DNA of 64,000 nucleotides from Diplonema papillatum (Eukaryota > Euglenozoa > Diplonemea > Diplonemida > Diplonemidae): contig JAPJBO010000808.1 in assembly GCA_030068145.1 (NCBI GenBank), positions 40,366-104,365 of the forward strand. Reading direction: 5' to 3'. Position 1 is the stretch's first letter. The number at the start of each line of letters is the position of its first letter. This document shows, piece by piece, positions 4,263 to 63,572 of this stretch. A program made the translations under genes and the position numbers. The notes below the pieces were generated by a model that was given only the letters and a program-made list of their open reading frames with translations, did no database searches and was not told the DNA's origin.

Positions 4263-4556
4263 AAATACTCGACGTAGCTGCTTCGACTCCGAATGGAAGG
4301 GAGGAAATATAGAGATAAGGGGCAATTACAATACAAGTACAATCTGATTTGTTCTTCGCTTACACCACCGTGTGTTGTTTGCTCACTCAGGACTTTGACC
4401 TGTTGTGTTTGTGTGATTTGTCGTGTAGGGGTAGACCCACACAACCTCACGTCCGTTCAACACGTGGTTCGGTAGTTACAGCACTTGGGATCCCTTCTGT
4501 TCTTTGTCGGGCAGCATCGTCGAGCATTTCCTTTCAAGCTGGCGCTTATGTAAAAA
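4263..4556 (+). repeat. SE-B element, full length
   Basis: Begins AAATACTCGACGTAGCTGC and ends GGCGCTTATGTAAAAA. Internal landmarks are ACACCACCGTGTGTTG, GACTTTGACCTG, GTAGACCC and GGGATCCCTTCTG. The segment CGTCGAGCATTTCC near the 3' end is complementary to the 5' end. The oligo-A tail and scattered near-identical copies suggest a SINE-like retroposon. It carries no ORF of its own. Confidence 0.9.
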
Positions 4557-6499: not shown

Positions 6500-6790
6500 A
6501 AATACTCGACGTAGCTGCCTTCACTCCGAATGGAAGGGAGGAAATATAGAGGTAGAGGGGCAAATACAATACAAGCGCAATTCTGATTTGTTCTTCGCTT
6601 ACACCACCGTGTGTTGTTTTCTCACTCAGGACTTTGACCTGTGTTTGTGTGATTTGTCGTGTAGGGGTAGACCCACACAACCTCACGTCCGTTCAACACG
6701 TGGTTCGGTAGTTACAGCACTTGGGATCCCTTCGGTTCTTTGTCTGGCAGCATCATCGAGCATTTTTTTCCAAGCTGGCGCTTAGGTAGA
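6500..6790 (+). repeat. SE-B element, full length
   Basis: Starts AAATACTCGACGTAGCTGCC and runs through the same internal landmarks as the 4263 copy, ending GGCGCTTAGGTAG. It is followed at once by a 22-bp miniature built only from element ends. Confidence 0.9.
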
Positions 6791-7412: not shown

Positions 7413-8071
7413 GCTCGCGGATGCAATCACAGGAGCATGAGGAGTGGTATCACCACACACCACCGCGGCTCCCGTGGGGCAGGCCGTCCACCGTGCCGCC
7501 TCCGACCCCAGCTTTGCTGCGGCCGGCTTCGTCCTATCCGGGCATAGTCCACCAACAAGTGTACTTGACCTCAAAGTCCCTTCCCAGTAAATCAGGATCG
7601 GGTTGTGCTGCGTCCTCAAGGATTGGCACATCTTCCTTTATAGTGCGGCTTGTGGGTTTGACACCCTAAGCCTCGCACGCGTGTTAGACTCGTTGGTCCG
7701 TGTTTCAAGACGGTCGAGCGCCACGCGGCGGGAACTATTTCCGTGCCGGTTCATATGTCAAAGAATCGCGTTTTTCACCCGTGTTTTAGTGTTAACGGGA
7801 AGGGTATCACCTGAGTGACAAGAAGCATCACCACGCTGCCGGGCAACTGTGGCGTAAAGCAGGGGGGAGTTCGTGTCACTTGAGGTACGACACGATGTCA
7901 GCGCCTCGCTGCATCGTGTCGGAAGGGTCGTTTTTAGCCGCGCTTTCGTTTAGTAGCGACCACGACGACGCAGGCGAAGTGACCCTTTCGTTGAGAAGGG
8001 AGACTGTCTTCAAAAGGCCGCAACGACAGTCGCCTCGAGTGTATTCTCGCGAAGCGGTCGCCGTATCGAAG
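7413..8071. other. No gene seen
   Basis: Short incidental ORFs on both strands only. No repeat of the window's other families is evident here. Confidence 0.4.
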
Positions 8072-8350
8072 AAATACTCGAGGGGCTGCCTTGTGCCTAC
8101 TTCGAAGGAGGCTAGAGGGGGAGAAACAATCCAACTACAAAGTGGGTCGTTTTTGTTGAACGCTTACGCCGCCGCTAAACCCAGATTTACCCGTGTTTCG
8201 TGTGGGCTACAGCACATTTACCCTCCTTCGAGATTGGAAAAATATGTTGATAGTGGGGAGTCATCGGCATGCCGATGAGTACCACACTACTCGACATTTC
8301 GCAACAGGCAGTCTCCTCAAGTATTTCCTACATAGCAGGTGCATATACCA
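8072..8350 (+). repeat. SE-A element, long variant
   Basis: Starts AAATACTCGAGGGGCTGCC and ends GCAGGTGCATATACCA. It carries about 50 extra bases before the 3' region, including the perfect palindrome CATCGGCATGCCGATG. A diverged relative of that insert is at about 55530-55560. It is joined directly to the SE-B copy at 8351. Confidence 0.85.
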
Positions 8351-8644
8351 AAATACTCGACGTAGCTGCTTGACTCCGAACGGAAGGGGGAAGTATAGAG
8401 GTAGAGGGGAAAATACAATACAAACACAATCTGATTTGTTCTTCGCTTGCACCACCGTATGTTGTTTTCTCACGCAGGACTTTGACCTGTTGTGTTTGTG
8501 TGATTTGTCGTGTTGGGGTAGACCCGCATGGCCTCACGTCCGTTCAACACGTGGTTCGGTAGTTGCAGCACTTGGGATCCCTTCGGTTCTTTGTCTGGCA
8601 GCTATTGTCGAGCATTTCCTTCCAAGCTGGCGCTTATGCAAAAC
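8351..8644 (+). repeat. SE-B element between two SE-A copies
   Basis: Full-length copy in the same orientation as both neighbours, linked by A-rich junctions. This gives a head-to-tail SE-A, SE-B, SE-A array. Confidence 0.92.
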
Positions 8645-8655
8645 AACAACAAAAG

Positions 8656-8877
8656 AAATACTCGAGGGACTGCCTTGTGCTCATTTCGAAGGAGGCTAGA
8701 GGGGGAGAAAACAATACAACTACAAAGTGGGTCTTTTTTGTTGAACGCTTACGCCCGCCACTAAACCCAGATTTACCTGTGTTTCGTGTGGGCTACAGCA
8801 CATTTACCTCCTTTGATCTATCGCGACTGGCTGTCTCCTCAAGCATTTCCTACAAAGCAGGTGCTTATACAAAAAAA
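8656..8877 (+). repeat. SE-A element, full length
   Basis: Starts AAATACTCGAGGGACTGCC. Internal landmarks are TTTCGAAGGAGGCTAGAG, CAATACAACTACAAAGTGGG, ACCCAGATTTACCTGTG and GTGGGCTACAGCACA. It ends GCAGGTGCTTATAC plus seven A's. CCTCAAGCATTTCC near the end is complementary to the start. SINE-like by its A-tail and dispersal. Confidence 0.93.
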
Positions 8878-10316
8878 TAATTCCGCGTTGCCGAAAGGCA
8901 CGCGGAATCCGTCGAATCGGGGGTCTGAAAAAACTTGCCGCCCCACCGTCTGGCGTGAAATCGGAGCATCCACCAACAAGGAAAGGAAAGGACGCAACAC
9001 GACCGCGAATGAGTGCAAGCGTACGAAGAGGCAGTTACCCACCTGACGAAATGCAGATCATCGCCACAGATTCCATGTCTGACCTCGAAATCTCACGGTA
9101 TCGGGCTTGTTTGATGCTATAGAGGGAGCAGGCTATTAACCAAAACGCGATGGACCGGTCATTGGTCGCGGTCCCTTCTGCGGGACTGGCCCGCCGCTCG
9201 GAGGCGGTTGCTTCTTGTTGGCAGGTTTCTCGATGGAAGCTGCTTTTTTTTTTTTTTTTTTTTTGTTGTTTTTTTCAGGGCATTAGCTTGGTTTCCGGCC
9301 CATTTTCCAAATTTTGGACCGCTGACGGCTTTTTGCGTCCTCACTCAGGAATGGGCTCAACACAGCGCGACGCAACCTATCTTCACGACAATGCTGGGCC
9401 CTGAGTGCCTCGGATCGCACATTGGCCACCTCTGCCGGGGGCCTGGGTGATGGTGTAGTGCCATTTTTGTGTTACCGTTGATCCCGAAGGACGATCAGTT
9501 TGGTGGCTTGCGACCTTTGTTTGTTTGGCAAGGAGTTTTTTTTTCTTCTTTTCCCCCGCCGGCTTTTCCAAATTTGGACTGACAGTCCAAATGTGGATAT
9601 AGAAGCTAATCCCCTGGGGTTTTTTTTTTTTTTTTTTTTTTTCTCAGCGTTTATTCTCTGCTTCAGCGACAGTCGCCCTTTGTGAAGCCGGCAATGTCTT
9701 TTGGAAGGCTGCTCGGTCTGAAGTTTTCGCATGCACTCAGTGGCCCATGCTGCAGACCCGCTCGTCAAAGCTGGGGAAAGGAGCGAAACCCCCATCGAAC
9801 CATCTAGTAGCTGGTTCACTCCAAAGTTTCCCTCGGGATAGCTAGAAAGCACACACAGGAGATACGCCAGGTGAAGCGAATGGTCGGAGGCATTGGGGAA
9901 ATCGCTTCCTCGACCTATTCTCAAACTTTAAATGGGCGTGAGCTCGGGATTACTTCATTGCAGCCACGTGCGTTCACCTGTTGGGCAGACCTTTCTCACT
10001 TGCTGGAGTGCGCTCTACGAGTCTGCCACGGGCCCCGGCCACTACTCATTGCACTACCCCCCTCTCCCACCGGGTATGTTAGGAATTTCCCTCTTTTTGT
10101 GTTTCCGACGATCCCGTGGGACGTACAGTTTTTTTTTCTTTTTTTTTCTCTTTCATTTTCCTTACTTCTTTTACCCCCAGTCTGGAAACACGGACACAAG
10201 CCTAGTACTACGTGACAAAGGTGTCAAAAGCTGACCCTGCTGGTCGTGGTAGCTCGGCCGTTTGATGCGGGGCAGGGCCTGCTGCCGTGCGGAGACTGGC
10301 TGGCTTTCTCCCACAG
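8878..10316. other. No gene seen; oligo-T tracts
   Basis: Long T runs at about 9244-9264 and 9620-9642, each followed by a CAG-containing stretch that looks like a polypyrimidine/acceptor signal. No exon with convincing coding character follows. A family D motif (GTGTTTCCGACGATCCCGT) lies at about 10100-10120. Confidence 0.4.
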
Positions 10317-14333: not shown

Positions 14334-14627
14334 TTTTACATAAGCGCCAGCTTGAAAGGAAATGCTCGACGATGCTGCCCGACAAAGAACAGAAGGGATC
14401 CCAAGTGCTGTAAACTACCGAACCACGTGTTGAACGGACGTGAGGTCATGCGGGTCTACCCCTACACGACAAATCACACAAACACAATCGGTCAAAGTCC
14501 TGAGTGAGCAAACAACACACGGTGGTGTAAGCGAAGAACAAATCAGATTGTGTCTGTATTGTATTTGCCCCTTACCTCTATATTTCCTCCCTTCCATTCG
14601 GAGTCGAAGCAGCAACGTCGAGTATTT
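14334..14627 (-). repeat. SE-B element, full length, inverted
   Basis: Reverse complement of the 39662 copy, from TTACATAAGCGCCAGC to CGTCGAGTATTT, with very few differences. Confidence 0.92.
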
Positions 14628-19846: not shown

Positions 19847-20460
19847 GGAGGGGGAAGGTAATAGGTAACCCCGGCATCATTCGGCTTGCGGGAAAACGAT
19901 TCATCGTTCCGCGTGGGTACCCCCGCTTTACGCTACCCCGTTTTTGCTTGTGTGCGGTCTAACTTAAAACTCTAAAACGGATGGCATTTGGACATTGCCG
20001 CAGGGTCGATGATTTACAAGCGAGACCTCCGGCCGAATTGATGCCGGTCGACTCCAGAACAATGGGAAACGGGGAAGGAGGAGGGCAAAGGTACCTGCAA
20101 ATCCGGGGCCGGGCGATGGGCATGGGCGAACCCATTGCCCGCTGATGTGTTCGACGTCCTGATGAGTCTCATGCTTCTGCAATTCCCATCGACTATCGCA
20201 TCTGGCCGCGGTCTTCATCGTTCTCCCAGAGCCAAGACATCCACCGATAAGTGCTATATGATGTCACCCTCGATCAACCGCAGTTGAACCGAGGGGGAAC
20301 AGTTGTGCTGCCTTTCCCGCGGGCCCCGGCTAGGGCCCAGGAACTGCCATTACCGAGCAGTTACCATCGGAGCGGGAGAGTGATTTGGTAATCCTACACG
20401 GGCCGAAAACCGGAAACTTGTCCAGGGCCCGGCCCCGAGTTACGGGTACCCCTGGAGGGG
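19847..20460. other. No gene seen
   Basis: Incidental ORFs only (for example minus 19964-20218). No repeat family of the window is recognised here. Confidence 0.4.
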
Positions 20461-22627: not shown

Positions 22628-22852
22628 AAAATACTTGAGGTACTGCCTTGTGCTCATTTCGAAGGAGGCTAGAGGAGGTGAAAACAATACAACTACAAAG
22701 TGGGTCTTTTTTGTCGAACGCTTACGCCCGCCACTGAACCCAGATTTACCTGTGTTTCGTGTGGGCTACAGCACATTTACCTCCTTTGATCTATCGCAAC
22801 TGGCAGTCTCCTCAAGCATTTCCTACAAAGCGGGTGCTCATACAAAAAAAAA
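22628..22852 (+). repeat. SE-A element, full length
   Basis: AAATACTTGAGGTACTGCC start, all SE-A landmarks, and a GCGGGTGCTCATAC plus A's end. The start carries a C-to-T change in CTCGAG, with CCTCAAG at the 3' partner site. Confidence 0.92.
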
Positions 22853-24646: not shown

Positions 24647-24869
24647 AAATACTCGAGGGACTGCCTTGTGCTCATTTCGAAGGAGGCTAGAGGGGGAGAA
24701 AACAATACAACTACAAAGTGGGTCTTTTTTTGTTGAACGCTTACGCAACACTAAACCCAGATTTACCTGTGTTTCGTGTGGGCTACAGCACAATTACCTC
24801 CTTTGATCTATCGCAACTGGCAGTCTCCTCGAGCATTTCCTACAAAGCAGGTGCTTATACAAAAAAAAA
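24647..24869 (+). repeat. SE-A element, full length
   Basis: AAATACTCGAGGGACTGCC to GCAGGTGCTTATAC plus nine A's. The 3' partner segment reads CCTCGAGCATTTCC, pairing with the 5' end at all but one position. Confidence 0.93.
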
Positions 24870-26594: not shown

Positions 26595-26815
26595 AAATAC
26601 TCGAGGGACTACCTTGTGCTCATTTCGAAGGAAGCTAGAGGGAGAGAAAACAATACAACTACAAAGTAGGTCGTTGCTGAACGCTTACGCCCGTCACTAA
26701 ACCCAGATTTACCTATGTTTCGTGTGGGCTACAGCACATTTACCTCCTCTTTGATCTTTCGCAACTGGCAGTCTCCTCCAGCATTTCCTGCAAAGCGGGT
26801 GCTTATACGAAAAAA
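26595..26815 (+). repeat. SE-A element, full length
   Basis: Starts AAATACTCGAGGGACTACC and ends GCGGGTGCTTATACGAAAAAA. Inserted at the end of a zinc-finger-like reading frame. Confidence 0.92.
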
Positions 26816-28621: not shown

Positions 28622-28884
28622 GGATGAAGCCAGAGGTGACAGAAAATTTTGCCACAGGGAAGGGGGCTTGTGGCAGCCAAGCGTTCATAGCAATGTTGCT
28701 TTTCAATCCTTCGATGTCGGCTCTTCCTAACCTAGACAAGCAGAATTGTCAAAGGGCACCCACCAACACTCGAACGGACAGGTTGGTTCTACCAAACATT
28801 AACGTTACAATAATCAATATCGCGCCGAAGGCGCGAAGGAAAAAACACCACCCTGCAACAAAACCCTGGATAGCCCTAGGATAA
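28615..28884 (+). CDS. Small unknown ORF inside the TIR element
   Basis: Eighty-nine codons with ordinary composition: a polar N-terminal half, then a short hydrophobic stretch (NINVTIINIAP) followed by a basic KARRKKHH cluster. No family is recognised. It overlaps the end of the previous frame by seven bases. It may be the remnant of an element-encoded protein or chance; there is no second copy in the window to test conservation. Confidence 0.3.
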   Translation: MLGMKPEVTENFATGKGACGSQAFIAMLLFNPSMSALPNLDKQNCQRAPTNTRTDRLVLPNINVTIINIAPKARRKKHHPATKPWIALG

Positions 28885-31097: not shown

Positions 31098-31195
31098 CTG
31101 ACGAGAATTGGCGGACAAGTCTGGTGCCAGCACCCGCGGTAATTCCAGCACCAACAGCGTATATAATGCTGCTGCTGTTAAGCTCGTAGTTGGAT
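31098..31195 (+). rRNA. 18S (SSU) rRNA-like fragment, probably a pseudogene
   Basis: ACAAGTCTGGTGCCAGCACC, CGCGGTAATTCCAGCACCAA, CAGCGTATATAATGC and AGCTCGTAGTTGGATCC follow the order of the universal 530-loop region of eukaryotic SSU rRNA up to the start of V4. Several normally invariant positions differ (AGCACC for the usual AGCTCC, GCACCCGCGG for GCAGCCGCGG), and two or three A's are lost before GCTCGTAGTTGG. No other rRNA segments flank it, so it looks like an isolated, worn fragment. The following 100 bp might be a diverged V4 region, which I cannot confirm. Confidence 0.6.
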
Positions 31196-31483: not shown

Positions 31484-31762
31484 AAATACTCGACGTAGCT
31501 GCTTTGACTCCGAGGTATAGAGGTAGAGAGGCCAATCAAGCACAATTCTGATTTGTTCTTCATTTACACCACCGTGTGTTGTTTTCTCACGCAGGAGTTT
31601 GACCTGTTGTGTTTGTGTGTTTTGTCGTGCAGGGGTAGACCCGCATGACCTCACGACCGTTCAACACGTGGTTCGGTAGTTACAGCACTTGGGAAACCCT
31701 TCGGTTCTTTGTCTAGCAGCTTTTGTTGAGCATTTCCTTTCAAGCTGGCGCTTATGTAAAAA
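31484..31762 (+). repeat. SE-B element, full length with internal gap
   Basis: AAATACTCGACGTAGCTGC to GGCGCTTATGTAAAAA, missing about 15-20 bases after the GACTCCGA block. Otherwise close to 8351-8644. Confidence 0.92.
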
Positions 31763-39661: not shown

Positions 39662-39957
39662 AAATACTCGACGTTGCTGCTTTGACTCCGAATGGAAGGG
39701 AGGAAATATAGAGGTAAGGGGCAAATACAATACAAACACAATCTGATTTGTTCTTCGCTTACACCACCGTGTGTTGCTTTCTCACTCAGGACTTTGCCCT
39801 GTTTTGTTTGTGTGATTTGTCGTGTAGGGAGTAGACCCGCATGACCTCACGTCCGTTCAACCCGTGGTTCGGTAGTTACAGCACTTGGGATCCCTTCTGT
39901 TCTTTGTCGGGCAGCATCGTCGAGCATTTCCTTTCAAGCTGGCGATTATGTAAAAAA
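39662..39957 (+). repeat. SE-B element, full length
   Basis: AAATACTCGACGTTGCTGC to GGCGATTATGTAAAAAA. One of the best preserved copies. Confidence 0.94.
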
Positions 39958-44047: not shown

Positions 44048-44195
44048 AAATACTCGACGTAGCTGCTTTGACTCCGAATGGAACTTCAATTTAGTGATTC
44101 AACACGTGGTTCGGTAGCTACAGCACTTCGGATCCTTTCGGTTCTTTGTCTGGCAGCATCGTCGAGCATTTCCTGCCAAGCTGGCGTATGTAAAA
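44048..44195 (+). repeat. SE-B element with large internal deletion
   Basis: AAATACTCGACGTAGCTGCT, TTGACTCCGAATGGAA, then a jump to TTCAACACGTGGTTCGGTAG and on to GGCGTATGTAAAAC. About 140 interior bases are missing. Confidence 0.88.
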
Positions 44196-45708: not shown

Positions 45709-48150
45709 TCAGTACGGAGACGCGTGGGACCTGAAGGGCAGGTCGACAGGAGCGTAGAGCGGGGTTTTTTCGTGCCGCGTCAGCCCGCAGCCCTGCGGGC
45801 ATTCGGCGGAGTTGTAGTAGAACGCGTCGAGGTCGGTTTCCTCGTCGTTGTGCGAGTCCGCGAAGGACGACAGGGACGCGGAAGAGAGGGTTGACGCGGT
45901 GGTCGCGTCCAAGTCCAGCGCCGTGGTGCCGCGGGTGGGTGTGGCCGAGAAGCACGGGTGGTCGAAGAAGTGCAGCCGCGACCGCTGCTGCGCCGCCGAC
46001 GACAAATCCGGATCCGACGCCTCGACGCCGCCGCAGCAGGCGCCGCTGCCCTGCCGCCGGAGCCCCACCCCCGCACCCCCCGACACGACCCACTCCTTCT
46101 CGCACTCCGCAGCACCTTCGCCGGCCGGCTTCCGCGTCGGGCCAGCGTAACTCTCCGAGAAGAACGCATGCCCCAGCAGAGCGGCCGCCGAAGGCCGCGT
46201 CACCGGGCTGCGGTCGAAGCACGAGAGGAGCAGCGCCCGAAGCGGCGCAGGCACAACGCCCAGCCCGGGGACCCCCGACGGCGGCAGCGGCGTGTTGCCG
46301 ATGTGGTAGATGAGCGCGAACGGGCTGGTCTGCAGCCCGTCAGCGAAGTCCGGGTACGGGTGGGTGCCGTGCATCTCGAGGACGGTGCACGCGGTCGCCC
46401 AGACGTCCGACGCCGGCGTCTCGCTGTCCTCCGGCCGCAGGATTATCTCCGGCGCGAGGTACATCGGCGACCCGATGTGGCTGTCCCACACGGACCCGGA
46501 CTGCGCCGCCGCCAGCTGGTCTTCAACCGCTTTGCTGAGCCCATAGTCCGCAAGCTTCAGCGTCGATCTGTCACTCGAAACGAGGATGTTCGACCCCTTC
46601 ACGTCCCTGTGCACGACGCCGCGGCTGTGCAGATACGCCAAACCTTCGAAGATCTGCTTAGTGTATCGCTGGAGGAAGTGGAAGGAAAGCTTCGCGCCGG
46701 GCGACTTTGCGATGACGGATTCGAGGGTTTCTCCTTCGGCGTAGTCCATGAGGACGTGCAGCTTCCGGTTCCACGACTCGGCGGCGTCGCAGGTGACGAC
46801 GCACGCCCTGTATTTGACGAGGTTCGGGTGCGCCAGCTCGGCGAGCGCTTCGACTTCCCTCCGGCAGCGCTCGAACGCCAGGCGAACGGCCCCGTTGTCG
46901 GCGTCGAGGGAGCCACCGTCGGACTTCGCCTGCCCCCTGCCAGAACCTCCGTCGGACGCCGCGATCACCTTCACCGCAAGGGCCGCGGGGCCTCCGACAG
47001 GCGGCTCCGCCTTGTATACCCTGCCGTACCTCCCCTGTCCCAGCAGCGCGCCGTGGGTGTAGTCGACGCCTCGGTACCGTGTCGTCGTCGTGGCGGTGCC
47101 CGCCTTGGCAGCCGGGGCGAGCGCCCGCTGCGGCGGGGATGATCGGGTGGGGAGCGAGCGGAAGGGTGGGGACGCGGCCGGTTTGGGGCCCGCCGCCGGC
47201 TTGCCCCCGTGGACGGGAGGCAGCAGAGCGCCGAAGGAGAAGTGCGGCTTCGCGGGGCCCGGGGGGGTGGCCGCGCCCTCGCAGTCGATCGGCGATGCGG
47301 CGAACAACTCGCACGCCGGCCCCGTCAGCGACTCGTGGCAGCTGGACGCGGGCGATGCGCAGGACCCCAACACGAGGGCAACCCCCCCCTTTCGGCGGCC
47401 TTCGGCCGCCTTCACGGGCTGCGTCGCCGCCGACGACTGCGACTCATCGTTGCTGCTGCTGGCGCCGCCGCCGCTGGGGGCGGACGCGTTCCCGGTGACG
47501 GTCGCGAGAATGTCGGCCACCAACTCATGGTTCGGGTGAGCCTGGGAGGGGGGCTGCTTCGGTTGTTCCGCGGGTTCGTTGGGAAACCCCGGGTTGCCTT
47601 CCGAACCGGCGTCTGCGGGGTGCGGCGGGGACAGCGGGGCCGCCGAAGAATTGCCCTTCGCCGCCGCCGCGAAGAAGCGCAGCGTGCTGAGCGCCGGCTC
47701 GGCCGCCACCGACCCTGGGGACGACGCCTGCTGCTGCGGCTGGGGGGGGTGGGTGCTGGCTTTGCTGGTGGCGTCCACCCCGCTGGCAGTAGGGGTGAGG
47801 ACTTCGGGTCCGGGCGTCACGTAACCAGGGGTTGCTGGGGGCGCCGGGTCTGGTGGGTTGCCGCTGGCTTCGGGGTCCTCGCACTCGGACGTTTCGACAG
47901 TGCGGTGAGTGCACGACGGCATCACGCAGTACTCGCCCTTCAGCTCGCGCGGCGGCGGCGTCTTCGCTGCCGCCGCGGCTTCTTCCGCGGCCGCCGCCCC
48001 TCCCGCGCCGCCGTCTCTCAGCGTCGGATCGCTCCTCTTCGCCACGAGAAGTGGGTACGTCGGCTTGGTAGGAGTCCCCGGGATCCCTTCGCTCCTCTGC
48101 GGCGGCGTCACGTTCGTCGGGCGCGCGTCTTTGCCCGCGCAGCAGCCCAT
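45709..48150 (-). CDS. Serine/threonine protein kinase, MAP3K/STE11-like, predicted acylated
   Basis: An intronless 813-residue ORF, strongly G+C-rich. It should transfer phosphate from ATP to Ser/Thr on a protein substrate. Residues 1-360 are low-complexity, Pro/Ala/Ser-rich and probably disordered. The kinase domain spans about 365-664: glycine loop GQGRYG (371-376), Lys394 in LAVK, helix-C Glu432, HRDVKGSN (514-521, Asp516 catalytic), DYG (535-537) instead of DFG, APE (566-568), SDVW (581-584) and RPS Arg652. HRDVKGSN, GSPMYLAPE and HPNLVKY favour the MEKK/STE11 group. A 20-residue Gly/Asp-rich insert separates Lys394 from helix C. MGCCAGK fits N-myristoylation at Gly2 and palmitoylation at Cys3/Cys4, so it probably acts at a membrane. 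The start is supported by this signal and an A at -3. The C-terminus (665-813) is variable. Upstream activators and substrates are not shown. Confidence 0.93.
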   Translation of the reverse strand: MGCCAGKDARPTNVTPPQRSEGIPGTPTKPTYPLLVAKRSDPTLRDGGAGGAAAAEEAAAAAKTPPPRELKGEYCVMPSCTHRTVETSECEDPEASGNPPDPAPPATPGYVTPGPEVLTPTASGVDATSKASTHPPQPQQQASSPGSVAAEPALSTLRFFAAAAKGNSSAAPLSPPHPADAGSEGNPGFPNEPAEQPKQPPSQAHPNHELVADILATVTGNASAPSGGGASSSNDESQSSAATQPVKAAEGRRKGGVALVLGSCASPASSCHESLTGPACELFAASPIDCEGAATPPGPAKPHFSFGALLPPVHGGKPAAGPKPAASPPFRSLPTRSSPPQRALAPAAKAGTATTTTRYRGVDYTHGALLGQGRYGRVYKAEPPVGGPAALAVKVIAASDGGSGRGQAKSDGGSLDADNGAVRLAFERCRREVEALAELAHPNLVKYRACVVTCDAAESWNRKLHVLMDYAEGETLESVIAKSPGAKLSFHFLQRYTKQIFEGLAYLHSRGVVHRDVKGSNILVSSDRSTLKLADYGLSKAVEDQLAAAQSGSVWDSHIGSPMYLAPEIILRPEDSETPASDVWATACTVLEMHGTHPYPDFADGLQTSPFALIYHIGNTPLPPSGVPGLGVVPAPLRALLLSCFDRSPVTRPSAAALLGHAFFSESYAGPTRKPAGEGAAECEKEWVVSGGAGVGLRRQGSGACCGGVEASDPDLSSAAQQRSRLHFFDHPCFSATPTRGTTALDLDATTASTLSSASLSSFADSHNDEETDLDAFYYNSAECPQGCGLTRHEKTPLYAPVDLPFRSHASPY

Positions 48151-49660: not shown

Positions 49661-49833
49661 TTAGTGTGATTGTCAGGCCTTCGACTACCCTGAGCAACGC
49701 ACTATGCACGCTACGTGTCTACGTCACAACAGATGGAACGCGTTTGTTGCGCCGCCGCGGGGTCGTTGTAGCCTCCCGGCCGGAGCCATCGTTGGATGAC
49801 CCCTCGTCCCGAAGTGAGCCCGGGTGCGCACGT

Positions 49834-50353
49834 GCAGCCTACGACACTTCATTCAAAGACCTGCTATTCGCTCGCTCTTTCCGCGCGCTATCGGAAATTG
49901 AGTTGCACCCGAAATTCATTGGCTTGTCGCTGGCGCAACGACTGCGGAAGGAGGCAATTGATGGCTGGTGGTCGGATTTTGTCCAGGCGTCCAGTGCTTT
50001 TGAGTTGTAAGCAACCTCAGTCCGCGTCTTCTTAACTCCCGCACAGCATACGAGGACACTCATTTCCCCCGCGTTCTGGTGAGATACGTAATCCTGCGCC
50101 GTTGCGTCAAGCACATCCAGGCTCGCACTCTGAGATAAAGATCGGTGGGTACCTTTGTTGCTACAACGACACGCCGACCTATTTAAGGGTTGAGATCTCG
50201 TTCGTTAACGGAATCAACCTGCAAAGCACTCCACAAACCAGGAGCGGCCATGCACCACCATACAATTCATCGAGCTCTCAATCTGTCAATCCTAGAGATC
50301 GTTATGAGCTAGTAAAATTGGTCATTGGTGGTTTCGGCCATTATCCACCGTAG
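49834..50353 (+). CDS. Unknown two-exon gene with a 40-nt intron
   Basis: Exon 1 (49834-50006) reads ordinary coding sequence such as ELHPKFIGLSLAQRLRKEA, preceded by an acceptor-like CACGTGCAG, so a further 5' exon is possible. A donor TT/GTAAGC at 50007 and CTTAACTCCCGCACAG ending at 50046 bound a 40-nt intron with a branch-like CTTAAC. Splicing keeps the frame open into exon 2 (50047-50353), which has EIKIGGYLCCYNDTPTYLRV and ends GGFGHYPP and a stop. The joined exons give about 160 residues, mixed alpha/beta in character. No family is recognised. It lies beside the kinase in the G+C-rich island. Confidence 0.42.
50007..50046 (+). other. Predicted 40-nt spliceosomal intron
   Basis: GTAAGC donor, CTTAAC branch-like motif 14 nt before the end, CACAG acceptor. 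Removing it joins two coding-like frames without a stop. Confidence 0.42.
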
Positions 50354-53216: not shown

Positions 53217-53419
53217 AAATACTCGAGGGACTGCCTTGTGCTCATTTTGAAGGAGGCAAGAGGGGGAGAAAACAATACAACTACAAAGTGGGTCTAACGC
53301 TTTCGCCCGCTACTAAACCCAGATTCACCTGTGTTTCGTGTGGGCTACAGCACATTTACCTGCTTTGATCTATCGCAACTGGCAGTCTCCTCAAGCATTT
53401 GGGTGCTTATACAAAAAAA
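53217..53419 (+). repeat. SE-A element with small 3' deletion
   Basis: AAATACTCGAGGGACTGCC start. About 14 bases (TCCTACAAAGCA) are missing before GGGTGCTTATAC plus A's. Confidence 0.92.
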
Positions 53420-55424: not shown

Positions 55425-55627
55425 TTTCGTTGTCGAATGCATGCACCCCAGCCGTTCCCTGTGTTTCGCGTGTCGTGTGTTGGACACAGCGACATTCTCT
55501 CCTTTGCGCCTTGAGATCGCGTTGCGGGAAGGAATCATCGGCGTGCTGATGAGTACCACACTTTTGCGCATTTGCAACTGGCGGCATCCCTCGAGTATTT
55601 CCTACAAGGCAAAGTACTTATTCAAAA
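55425..55627 (+). repeat. SE-A element, long diverged variant
   Basis: TTCCCTGTGTTTCGCGTGTC, ATCATCGGCGTGCTGATGAG, ATTTGCAACTGGCGG and CCTCGAGTATTTCCTACAAG, then GTACTTATTCAAAAAA. Shares the extra block of the 8072 copy; the 5' end is lost. Confidence 0.65.
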
Positions 55628-58856: not shown

Positions 58857-59077
58857 AAATACTCGAGGGACTGCCTTGTGCTCATTTCGAAGGAGGCTAG
58901 AGGGGGAGAAAACAATACAACTACAAAGTGGGTCTTTTTTGTTGAACGCTTACGCCACTAAACCCAGCTTTACCTGTGTTTCGTGTGGGCTACAGCGCAT
59001 TTACCTCCTTTGATCTATCGCAACTGGCAGTCTCCTCAAGCATTTCCTACAAAGCAGGTGCTTATACAAAAAAAAAA
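58857..59077 (+). repeat. SE-A element, full length
   Basis: AAATACTCGAGGGACTGCC to GCAGGTGCTTATAC plus A's, with a four-base loss after CTTACGCC. Confidence 0.93.
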
Positions 59078-62654: not shown

Positions 62655-63482
62655 TACATAAGCGCCAGCTTGAAAGGAAATGCTCGACGATGCTGCCCGA
62701 CAAAGAACAGAAGGGATCCCAAGTGCTGCAACTACCGAACCACGTGTTGAACGGACGTGAGGTCATGCGGGTCTACCCCTACACGACAAATCACACAAAC
62801 ACAGGTCAAAGTCCTGAGTGAGAAAGCAACACACGGTGGTGTAAGCGAAGAACAAATCAGATTGTGTTTTGTATTGTATTTGCCCCTTACCTCTATATGG
62901 GTCAATGCCAAACCCCCCCCCCCCCCTTTGCACTTCTTCAGCTCAAAAAATTTCTGAGTCAAACCCGGGTATTTCTGGGCCCAGGATCACCCCAAAAACA
63001 ACTTCTGAGTGTTATTTCCTACCAGAGGGGCCCCGTGCCATGCATAGGAGCTCACAAACCCACACAGATGGGGGGTATGGTACCCCCACCCCCCCCTCCC
63101 GCATGATCCAAAATAGGGCCAAAAACAGGCATTTTTTCAGATTTTCCACTGTGGTCTGGGAATGGGCAGCAAGGGTCAGCGCCTGGAGAAAGAAATGTGT
63201 ATTCCGCTCCGGGTGACCATGCGCGCACCAAATTGGCCTCGGAGACTCCTGTTTTTACATGCAGATACCTCACTGCCAGCCCCCAAGACTCCTGCCTGTT
63301 CACCATGCGGGAGGGGGGGGTGGGGGTACCATACCCCCCATCTGTGTGGGTTTGTGAGCTCCTGTGCATGGCACGGGGCCCATCTGGTAGGAAATAACAC
63401 TCAGAAGTTGTTTTTGGGGTGATCCTGGGCCCAGAAATACCCGGGTTTGACTCAGAACTTTTTTGAGCTGAAGAAGTGCAAA

Positions 63483-63515
<33 letters not shown>

Positions 63516-63572
63516 GGCATTGACCCATATTTCCTCCCTTCCATTCGGAGTCGAAGCAGCGTCGAGTACTTT
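62655..63572 (-). repeat. SE-B element, inverted, split by a foldback insertion
   Basis: TACATAAGCGCCAGCTTGAA to CCTTACCTCTATAT (62655-62898), then, after the insertion, ATATTTCCTCCCTTCC to GTCGAGTACTTT (63527-63572). Removing 62899-63526 and one ATAT restores a normal SE-B order. Confidence 0.92.
62899..63526. mobile_element. 628-bp foldback element with ATAT target duplication
   Basis: Ends GGGTCAATGCCAA and TTGGCATTGACCC, each next to a C or G run. Arms of 207 and 223 bp (62899-63105, 63304-63526) are nearly identical inverted copies (CAAACCCGGGTATTTCTGGG in one, its complement in the other). A 198-bp unique centre has no ORF. ATAT lies at 62895-62898 and 63527-63530. Non-autonomous; same end family as 41650-43261. 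Confidence 0.92.

Follow-up and report, generated by a model that had tools for sequence, protein, structure and literature searches.

In this study, a 64,000-nucleotide stretch of the Diplonema papillatum genome (hereafter the window) was analysed for two families of short repeated elements, SE-A and SE-B. Three of these elements follow one another head to tail on the + strand at 8072–8877, in the order A-type variant, B and A, separated by spacers of 7 and 21 A-rich bases. The first is an SE-A variant of 272 nt (8075–8346) whose A body is separated from the 3′ arm by an additional block; the second, after 7 A-rich bases, is an SE-B element (8354–8637); and the third is an SE-A element of the A1 subfamily (8659–8868). 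The usual sizes are about 210 nt for SE-A and about 284 nt for SE-B. The extra block of the variant resembles GTCATCGGCATGCCGATGAGTACCACAC; such blocks are found at 8231–8298, within the variant itself, and again at 55531–55606, L021:6125 and L053.

Each element is built in the same order: an A border, a 5′ arm beginning TACTCG, a body, a complementary 3′ arm, about 10 bases with a TTCCT core, a hairpin, AT plus two further letters, and a run of A's. The SE-A termini are TACTCGAGG at the 5′ end paired with CCTCRAGCA at the 3′ side, and those of SE-B are TACTCGACG paired with CGTCGAGCA. In the SE-B element of the trio, the 5′ arm TACTCGACGTAGCTGC (8354–8369, +) pairs with the 3′ arm ending GTCGAGCA (8597–8614, +); in the SE-A element, TACTCGAGGGACTGCC (8659–8674, +) pairs with GGCTGTCTCCTCAAGCA (8829–8845, +), the pairing in both cases being taken from the predicted fold and the co-variation alignment. 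The inverted repeat is asymmetric, lying at the very 5′ end on one side and about 26–30 nt before the 3′ end on the other, with the hairpin in between. This arrangement, TACTCG at the 5′ end and CTCRAGYA about 26–30 nt from the 3′ end, was found in A1, A2, B and several divergent members. The hairpin has the form AAGC-NNNN-GCTT and ends 5–9 nt from the element end; it lies at 8624–8635 in SE-B (AAGC TGGC GCTT, +) and at 8855–8866 in SE-A (AAGC AGGT GCTT, +), the latter followed by ATAC and an A-run, and in each family the fold was predicted for a sister copy. The hairpin tail AAGCNGGNGCTTAT followed by A's is the common 3′ end of both families, and the two letters after AT vary by family: AC in most A copies, GT in most B copies, and TC in a rarer tail class with 81 exact matches in the genome. 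The paired ends with a 3′ tail outside them, as described in the initial annotation, are real and recur in divergent families.

Copies in the window and in the genome

The window holds six full-length A copies and one cut short, together with seven B copies that span both ends (one internally deleted) and three partial ones, a tally that omits four weak internal matches (three A, one B). Besides the trio, SE-A copies lie on the + strand at 22632–22841, 24650–24858, 26598–26806 and 58860–59065, and a copy without its 3′ end at 53220–53400. SE-B copies on the + strand were found at 4266–4549 (with three candidate empty sites elsewhere, 83–86% identical), 6503–6784, 31487–31755 (an older copy), 39665–39949 and 44051–44186 (the internally deleted copy); one on the − strand at 14340–14624 has as its neighbour a + strand A-like element, whose 3′ arm it adjoins. 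The partial B copies comprise a 3′ end cut by the window edge (1–80, +), a copy without its 5′ end (62658–62898, −) and a 5′ end only (63527–63568, −).

The assembly searched comprises 271,365,524 bases in 2,910 contigs. The tail AAGCNGGYGCTTATNNAAA has 8,187 exact matches in it, a count that is exact for that pattern only, and the reversed pattern has none, which excludes chance. Two short-element families with matched ends and a shared 3′ tail are confirmed. Similarity searches for element copies returned at least 44 and at least 41 matches. Loci L009–L028 were chosen because they hold an A copy, so copy densities taken from them are biased. Truncation is about symmetric: 48 copies were full, 10 had the 3′ end only (plus one at a sequence edge) and 9 had the 5′ end only, with no excess of 5′ truncation in this set.

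The D. papillatum genome consists of 52% repeats, the commonest having about 6,000 copies at ≥ 90% identity, and encodes LINE and Helitron proteins (PMC10161547); the available part of that account reports such abundant dispersed repeats but describes no element with SE-A or SE-B ends. A literature search on SINEs and on diplonemids and related subjects, with supplements outside its scope, yielded no paper recognisably describing SE-A or SE-B among the matches listed.

Several other features of the window were recorded. Rfam at the curated threshold gave five rRNA pieces and nothing else over the whole window: 9827–9997, 20099–20255 (−), 28665–28791, 31106–31154 and 49830–50341 (−). These scattered nuclear-type matches comprise one 5.8S match of full model length and four partial pieces, and accord with the rRNA fragments that the available part of the D. 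papillatum genome paper describes (PMC10161547). A 26-base unit forms a long tandem array from 60195 to beyond 61340. The longest frame listed in the window is an 813-aa open frame at 45709–48150 (−), which is protein kinase-like by eye (HRDVKGSN motif).

Relationship of the families and pairing of their ends

The interiors of A and B had been called unrelated, and for these two families that description was wrong. Blocks common to both were found by alignment (ACAATACAANTACAA, TTTGTT..CGCTTAC and TACAGCAC), and the local alignment score of 84 was reached by none of 2000 mononucleotide shuffles, although the margin is narrow (shuffle maximum 82). The two interiors are related, as judged from the alignment. 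The rarer TC tail class led to 20 loci of much more diverged members, several of which have heads like TACTCGGGGGGGCCGCC with 3′ arms like GGCGGCCTCCTCGAGTA. In these divergent members the arms and tail are kept and the interior is replaced, in one case (L038) by tandem repeats. A second set of 20 loci, picked for CGAGTA in the 3′ arm, yielded 7 with a head by rule, most of which belong to the older subfamily A2, which carries GGGGCTGCC with GGCAGCCTCC; A1 carries GGGACTGCC with GGCAGTCTCC. A2 has a G-C pair where A1 has A-T, and the divergent members have C-G where A has T-A. SE-A and SE-B are best explained as non-autonomous members of one large superfamily.

The co-variation set was drawn from 85 tails, 58 of which had a head by rule; 7 of the 20 loci chosen for CGAGTA passed (AAA followed by TACTCG), and these loci are uninformative on the CGAGTA columns owing to that selection. 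Fifty-four elements passed the rule, of which the 51 whose arms are distinct were tested; the alignment leaves out 8 further loci and 4 relaxed-tail candidates. The initial annotation had proposed compensating change between the 5′ and 3′ ends. Two-sided changes are found mainly at 3 of the 16 pairs (n = 51): 7-76 (G-C/C-G), 11-71 (G-C/A-T) and 13-67 (T-A/C-G). Pair 11-71 is G-C in 23 elements, A-T in 23, G-T in 3 and A-C in 2. The events are few, however, and two pairs are mostly broken, 1-82 being standard in 16 and 4-79 in 24 of the 51; in A1, pair 13-67 is T-T or C-T in 9 of 24 copies.

A tree-preserving test was performed with our own script modelled on R-scape, using 200 null alignments. 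Within the helix set only, one pair was significant (11-71, E = 0.028; 7-76, E = 0.31), but over all 5,995 column pairs none was, and just one of the top 25 pairs listed belongs to the helix. In an arm-swap test on 16 non-redundant elements, duplexes of swapped arms were overall weaker, the true pairing being reached by 7 of 100,000 permutations (15 of 100,000 without the seed). In this test, the own 3′ arm was the best single partner in just 2 of the 16 elements, and it ranked 14 and 16 in L050 and L037, whose heads are probably mis-assigned and which were both kept. Co-variation is close to what two founder sequences alone would give, yet A2 and the divergent members add events. The element ends were thus matched through a handful of founder events, and the co-variation is modest.

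Mismatches of the G-U type outnumber those of the A-C type by 37 to 11 without pairs 1 and 4, and with these pairs the figures are 37 and 70; the mismatch spectrum carries no clear RNA signature. In the folds predicted for SE-A and SE-B, the arms are joined by some 16 pairs or more, interrupted by bulges. Whole-element folds are more stable than shuffles (z −3.58 for A and −2.36 for B), and four interiors folded in the same way had no excess stability (z +0.86, +1.75 and −0.74 for three A, +0.96 for B); in these models, the excess folding stability appears confined to the arms. Matching ends would look the same for an RNA stem and for a pair of DNA ends that a single enzyme binds.

Insertion sites and the search for a partner element

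The 5′ border carries three to five A's in 40 of the 48 full copies (four in 18, five in 16). Position −5 is never T, being A in 26 copies, C in 11 and G in 11. The 3′ A-run ranges from 0 to 20, and is longer and more variable than the 5′ one. A clean insertion was found for one B copy (L021:3045) inside a high-copy repeat, where all 40 scored joined-flank matches cross the junction; in this query of ten sites, every scored place fell to that one site. The empty site reads GGAAAATAAAAAG in 14 of 14 matches read, all bearing on this single insertion, and the filled site reads GGAAAA, the element and then GTAAAAATAAAAAG, so the target is AAAA. Four A's stand to the left of the element and five to its right, the latter following the two family letters; one A has been added at the 3′ end. 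These A's fit either a 4-bp AAAA duplication or A's carried by the element. In a 20-site query, none of the bridging matches scored belonged to a site other than the B copy at 4266.

No duplication beyond the A-run was detected in the 48 copies; at k = 5, own-flank matches occurred in 19 of 48, against a shuffled mean of 19.7. Two copies have a G next to the head. In one of them the word AAAAG occurs in the copy's own 3′ flank; in the other it occurs only beyond an A element that follows directly. A duplication would predict this, yet 22 of the 48 copies have the word in that flank.

Tail-to-head junctions number 596 genome-wide against none for the reversed control, and the spacing from the two family letters of the tail to the next head is exactly 5 nt in 63 of the 100 junctions listed out of this total. 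In 4 of 5 junctions sampled (L017, L018, L020, L021 and 8346/8354 of the window), an A-type element is joined with B. Taken together, the borders, the empty site and these junctions indicate that the elements insert where a short A-run begins or ends, the A-runs of their own relatives among them. Another repeat, starting GAACATTTCCGGAGTTGGGGCTTGCACTGAT, also abuts A-runs (L018:5170, L026 (−), L028 (−), L042:624 and in the window) and directly follows an SE tail three times (L018, L028 and L042); it may represent a further element family that shares this target.

Candidate partner elements were sought among reverse transcriptases and Helitrons. The PF00078 reverse-transcriptase profile gave 4,330 candidates in the genome, of which 150 were scored and eight downstream stretches were read. 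The SE tail is absent from these eight LINE 3′ stretches at ≤ 2 mismatches; several of them show their own 3′ ends with A-runs, while L034 ends early at a contig end and L035 is without a clear A-run end in 700 letters. The Helitron Rep domain (PF14214) has 68 matches in the genome, many in open frames of > 2,000 aa. Of the two Helitron loci read, one a tandem unit of 7.2 kb and the other the 9.5 kb between two matches, neither contained an exact head or a tail at ≤ 1 mismatch, and near matches to the ends in the 9.5 kb stretch fall mostly within its open frames. One locus (L057, C514:137092–159581) has four Helitron Rep matches spaced by 7,154, 7,154 and 7,750 bases with 1,480-aa open frames, and forms a tandem array.

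Tails without the usual upstream letters gave 123 matches, of which 100 were listed and 8 were read, all from one recurring context with 35 exact genome matches. Six of the 8 share one duplicated repeat of > 1.3 kb, one (L103) is an A element without a 3′ arm, and one is of another kind; in the 1.1 kb of the repeat that was read, no reverse transcriptase is apparent by eye. This repeat (L101, L102 and L106–L109) is near identical across several contigs, ends in the SE tail and has an ankyrin-like frame on the opposite strand (by eye); L105/L110 share its upstream sequence and differ in the 3′ flank. The element without a 3′ arm, seen once, shows neither need nor dispensability of that arm. An autonomous element with SE-A or SE-B ends was not found in the two Helitron loci and the eight LINE 3′ stretches.

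Possible routes of mobility

From the observed ends, hairpin, A-run target, copy numbers and genomic Rep domains, we infer movement as DNA by an enzyme that recognises the ends. The best explanation, for which we put the chances at about even, places SE-A and SE-B among the non-autonomous Helitron2/Helentron-like (HINE-like) elements, as their asymmetric terminal inverted repeats, 3′ hairpin and homopolymer borders suggest. A trans-acting enzyme from another element of the same genome, most likely a Rep/helicase of the Helitron2/Helentron-like kind, would recognise both element ends as well as the hairpin on the 3′ side, move the DNA and insert it into short A-runs; only the ends would need conservation, and the interiors could drift or be replaced. 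The set-back 3′ repeat with its hairpin, the replaceable interiors and the predicted arm-only stability argue for this reading, as do the symmetric truncation, the lack of a detected duplication beyond the A-run, the AAAA empty sites (14 of 14), the head-to-tail junctions, the Rep matches and the runs of at least five T's in 25 of 32 full A copies. Two points count against it: no autonomous partner with these ends was found in the loci read, and the borders are made of A-runs, where Helentrons and Helitrons are reported to have T-runs or AT sites. In addition, the four to five A's found on either side could just as well represent a short target-site duplication, a feature absent from Helitrons, and the longer, variable 3′ A-run resembles an A-tail.

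The available descriptions of related elements point in the same direction. HINEs have subterminal inverted repeats of 12–15 bp, a 3′ palindrome, border T-strings varying in number and, in some copies, tandem repeats (PMC4067079). As in these DINE-1-like Helentrons, the SE inverted repeats are near the ends with the 3′ one set back, the 3′ hairpin and homopolymer borders are present, no duplication beyond the borders was detected, some interiors hold tandem repeats and the copy number is high; unlike in HINEs, the borders are A-runs and not T-runs, the target in this orientation is AAAA and not TT, the 3′ repeat lies 26–30 nt from the end against about 38–60 in HINEs (PMC4067079), and an autonomous partner was not found for SE in the loci read. 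FoHeli, a Fusarium Helitron2-type element, likewise has asymmetric terminal inverted repeats, the 3′ one lying about 20–40 bp before the end, terminal hairpins in some groups and nested self-insertions; it differs in that full FoHeli carry Rep/helicase genes, one group prefers TNAT/A and the ends are unrelated in sequence, as far as the accessible text of that report goes (PMC5148889).

The main alternative is that these elements are SINE-like retroposons, in which a paired-end transcript would be copied by a LINE enzyme reading the 3′ hairpin, with priming on TTTT at a nicked A-run and a 4–5 bp duplication of A's left behind. We regard this as possible, though on the unlikely side. SINEs mobilised via a shared LINE 3′ tail are a known class, and SE resembles them in having different bodies with one 3′ tail that contains a hairpin and A's. 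A nick at the border would also explain the tight 5′ A-run, the missing T at position −5 and the longer 3′ run; a 4–5 bp duplication of A's is compatible with the 48 copies, in which no duplication beyond the A-run was detected; and the genome is rich in reverse transcriptases. SE differs from the known class in that its 5′ end is conserved and coupled to the 3′ arm, in the lack of a LINE bearing the tail among the eight stretches read and of a visible Pol III promoter, and in the lack of a long A-tail at the one clean site, where a single A was added. Most of the unusual-context tails that were read (six of 8) lie in the repeat described above, where no reverse transcriptase was seen. The T-runs would tend to end Pol III transcripts, which argues against a Pol III origin; no Pol III promoter and no head derived from tRNA, 7SL or 5S was seen (boxes A and B by eye only), no tRNA was found in the window by ARAGORN with the bacterial code, and Rfam gave no match at E ≤ 5 in the region 8000–8900. 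With the tail absent from the eight LINE stretches, no duplication detected beyond the A-run, no excess of 5′ truncation and no excess structure in the four interiors folded, the SINE with a LINE partner proposed in the initial annotation is so far unsupported. Its suggestion that the paired ends are a mobility signal is reasonable in itself, since the ends recur in divergent families, but the SINE/LINE route attached to it has gained no support so far.

A retroposon class of a different kind is rather doubtful: an RNA that must close its own ends into a panhandle for copying would leave only full-length copies, co-evolving ends and a free middle, and would be SINE-like, with selection acting on its closing stem and not on promoter or body. 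Another candidate, MITEs mobilised by an unrecognised DDE transposase that duplicates 4 bp (AAAA), would account for the inverted ends, the short AAAA on both sides and the replaceable interiors; this is improbable, as the 3′ inverted repeat is not terminal: beyond it, A, B and the clear divergent members carry a further 26–30 nt that include a hairpin. DDE elements are not known to have such a hairpin-bearing segment outside the terminal inverted repeat. The elements could also be structured RNA genes of the host, or non-conventional introns of the Euglena type, that have spread as repeats and whose paired ends serve RNA processing, the ends of euglenid non-conventional introns being brought together by pairing. 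This is very improbable, given hundreds of copies directly head to tail, a 3′ hairpin and A-run outside the stem, four folded interiors without excess structure and, in the available part of the D. papillatum genome paper, a report of no non-conventional introns (PMC10161547).

If the Helitron2/Helentron-like reading is correct, very abundant short repeats of a diplonemid, a member of one of the most species-rich marine protist groups, would move into A-runs by Helitron-type enzymes, and the DINE-1-like architecture would extend to Euglenozoa. It would also call for caution elsewhere, in that what looks like a co-varying 5′–3′ RNA stem of a repeat family can be a pair of DNA ends that one enzyme recognises.
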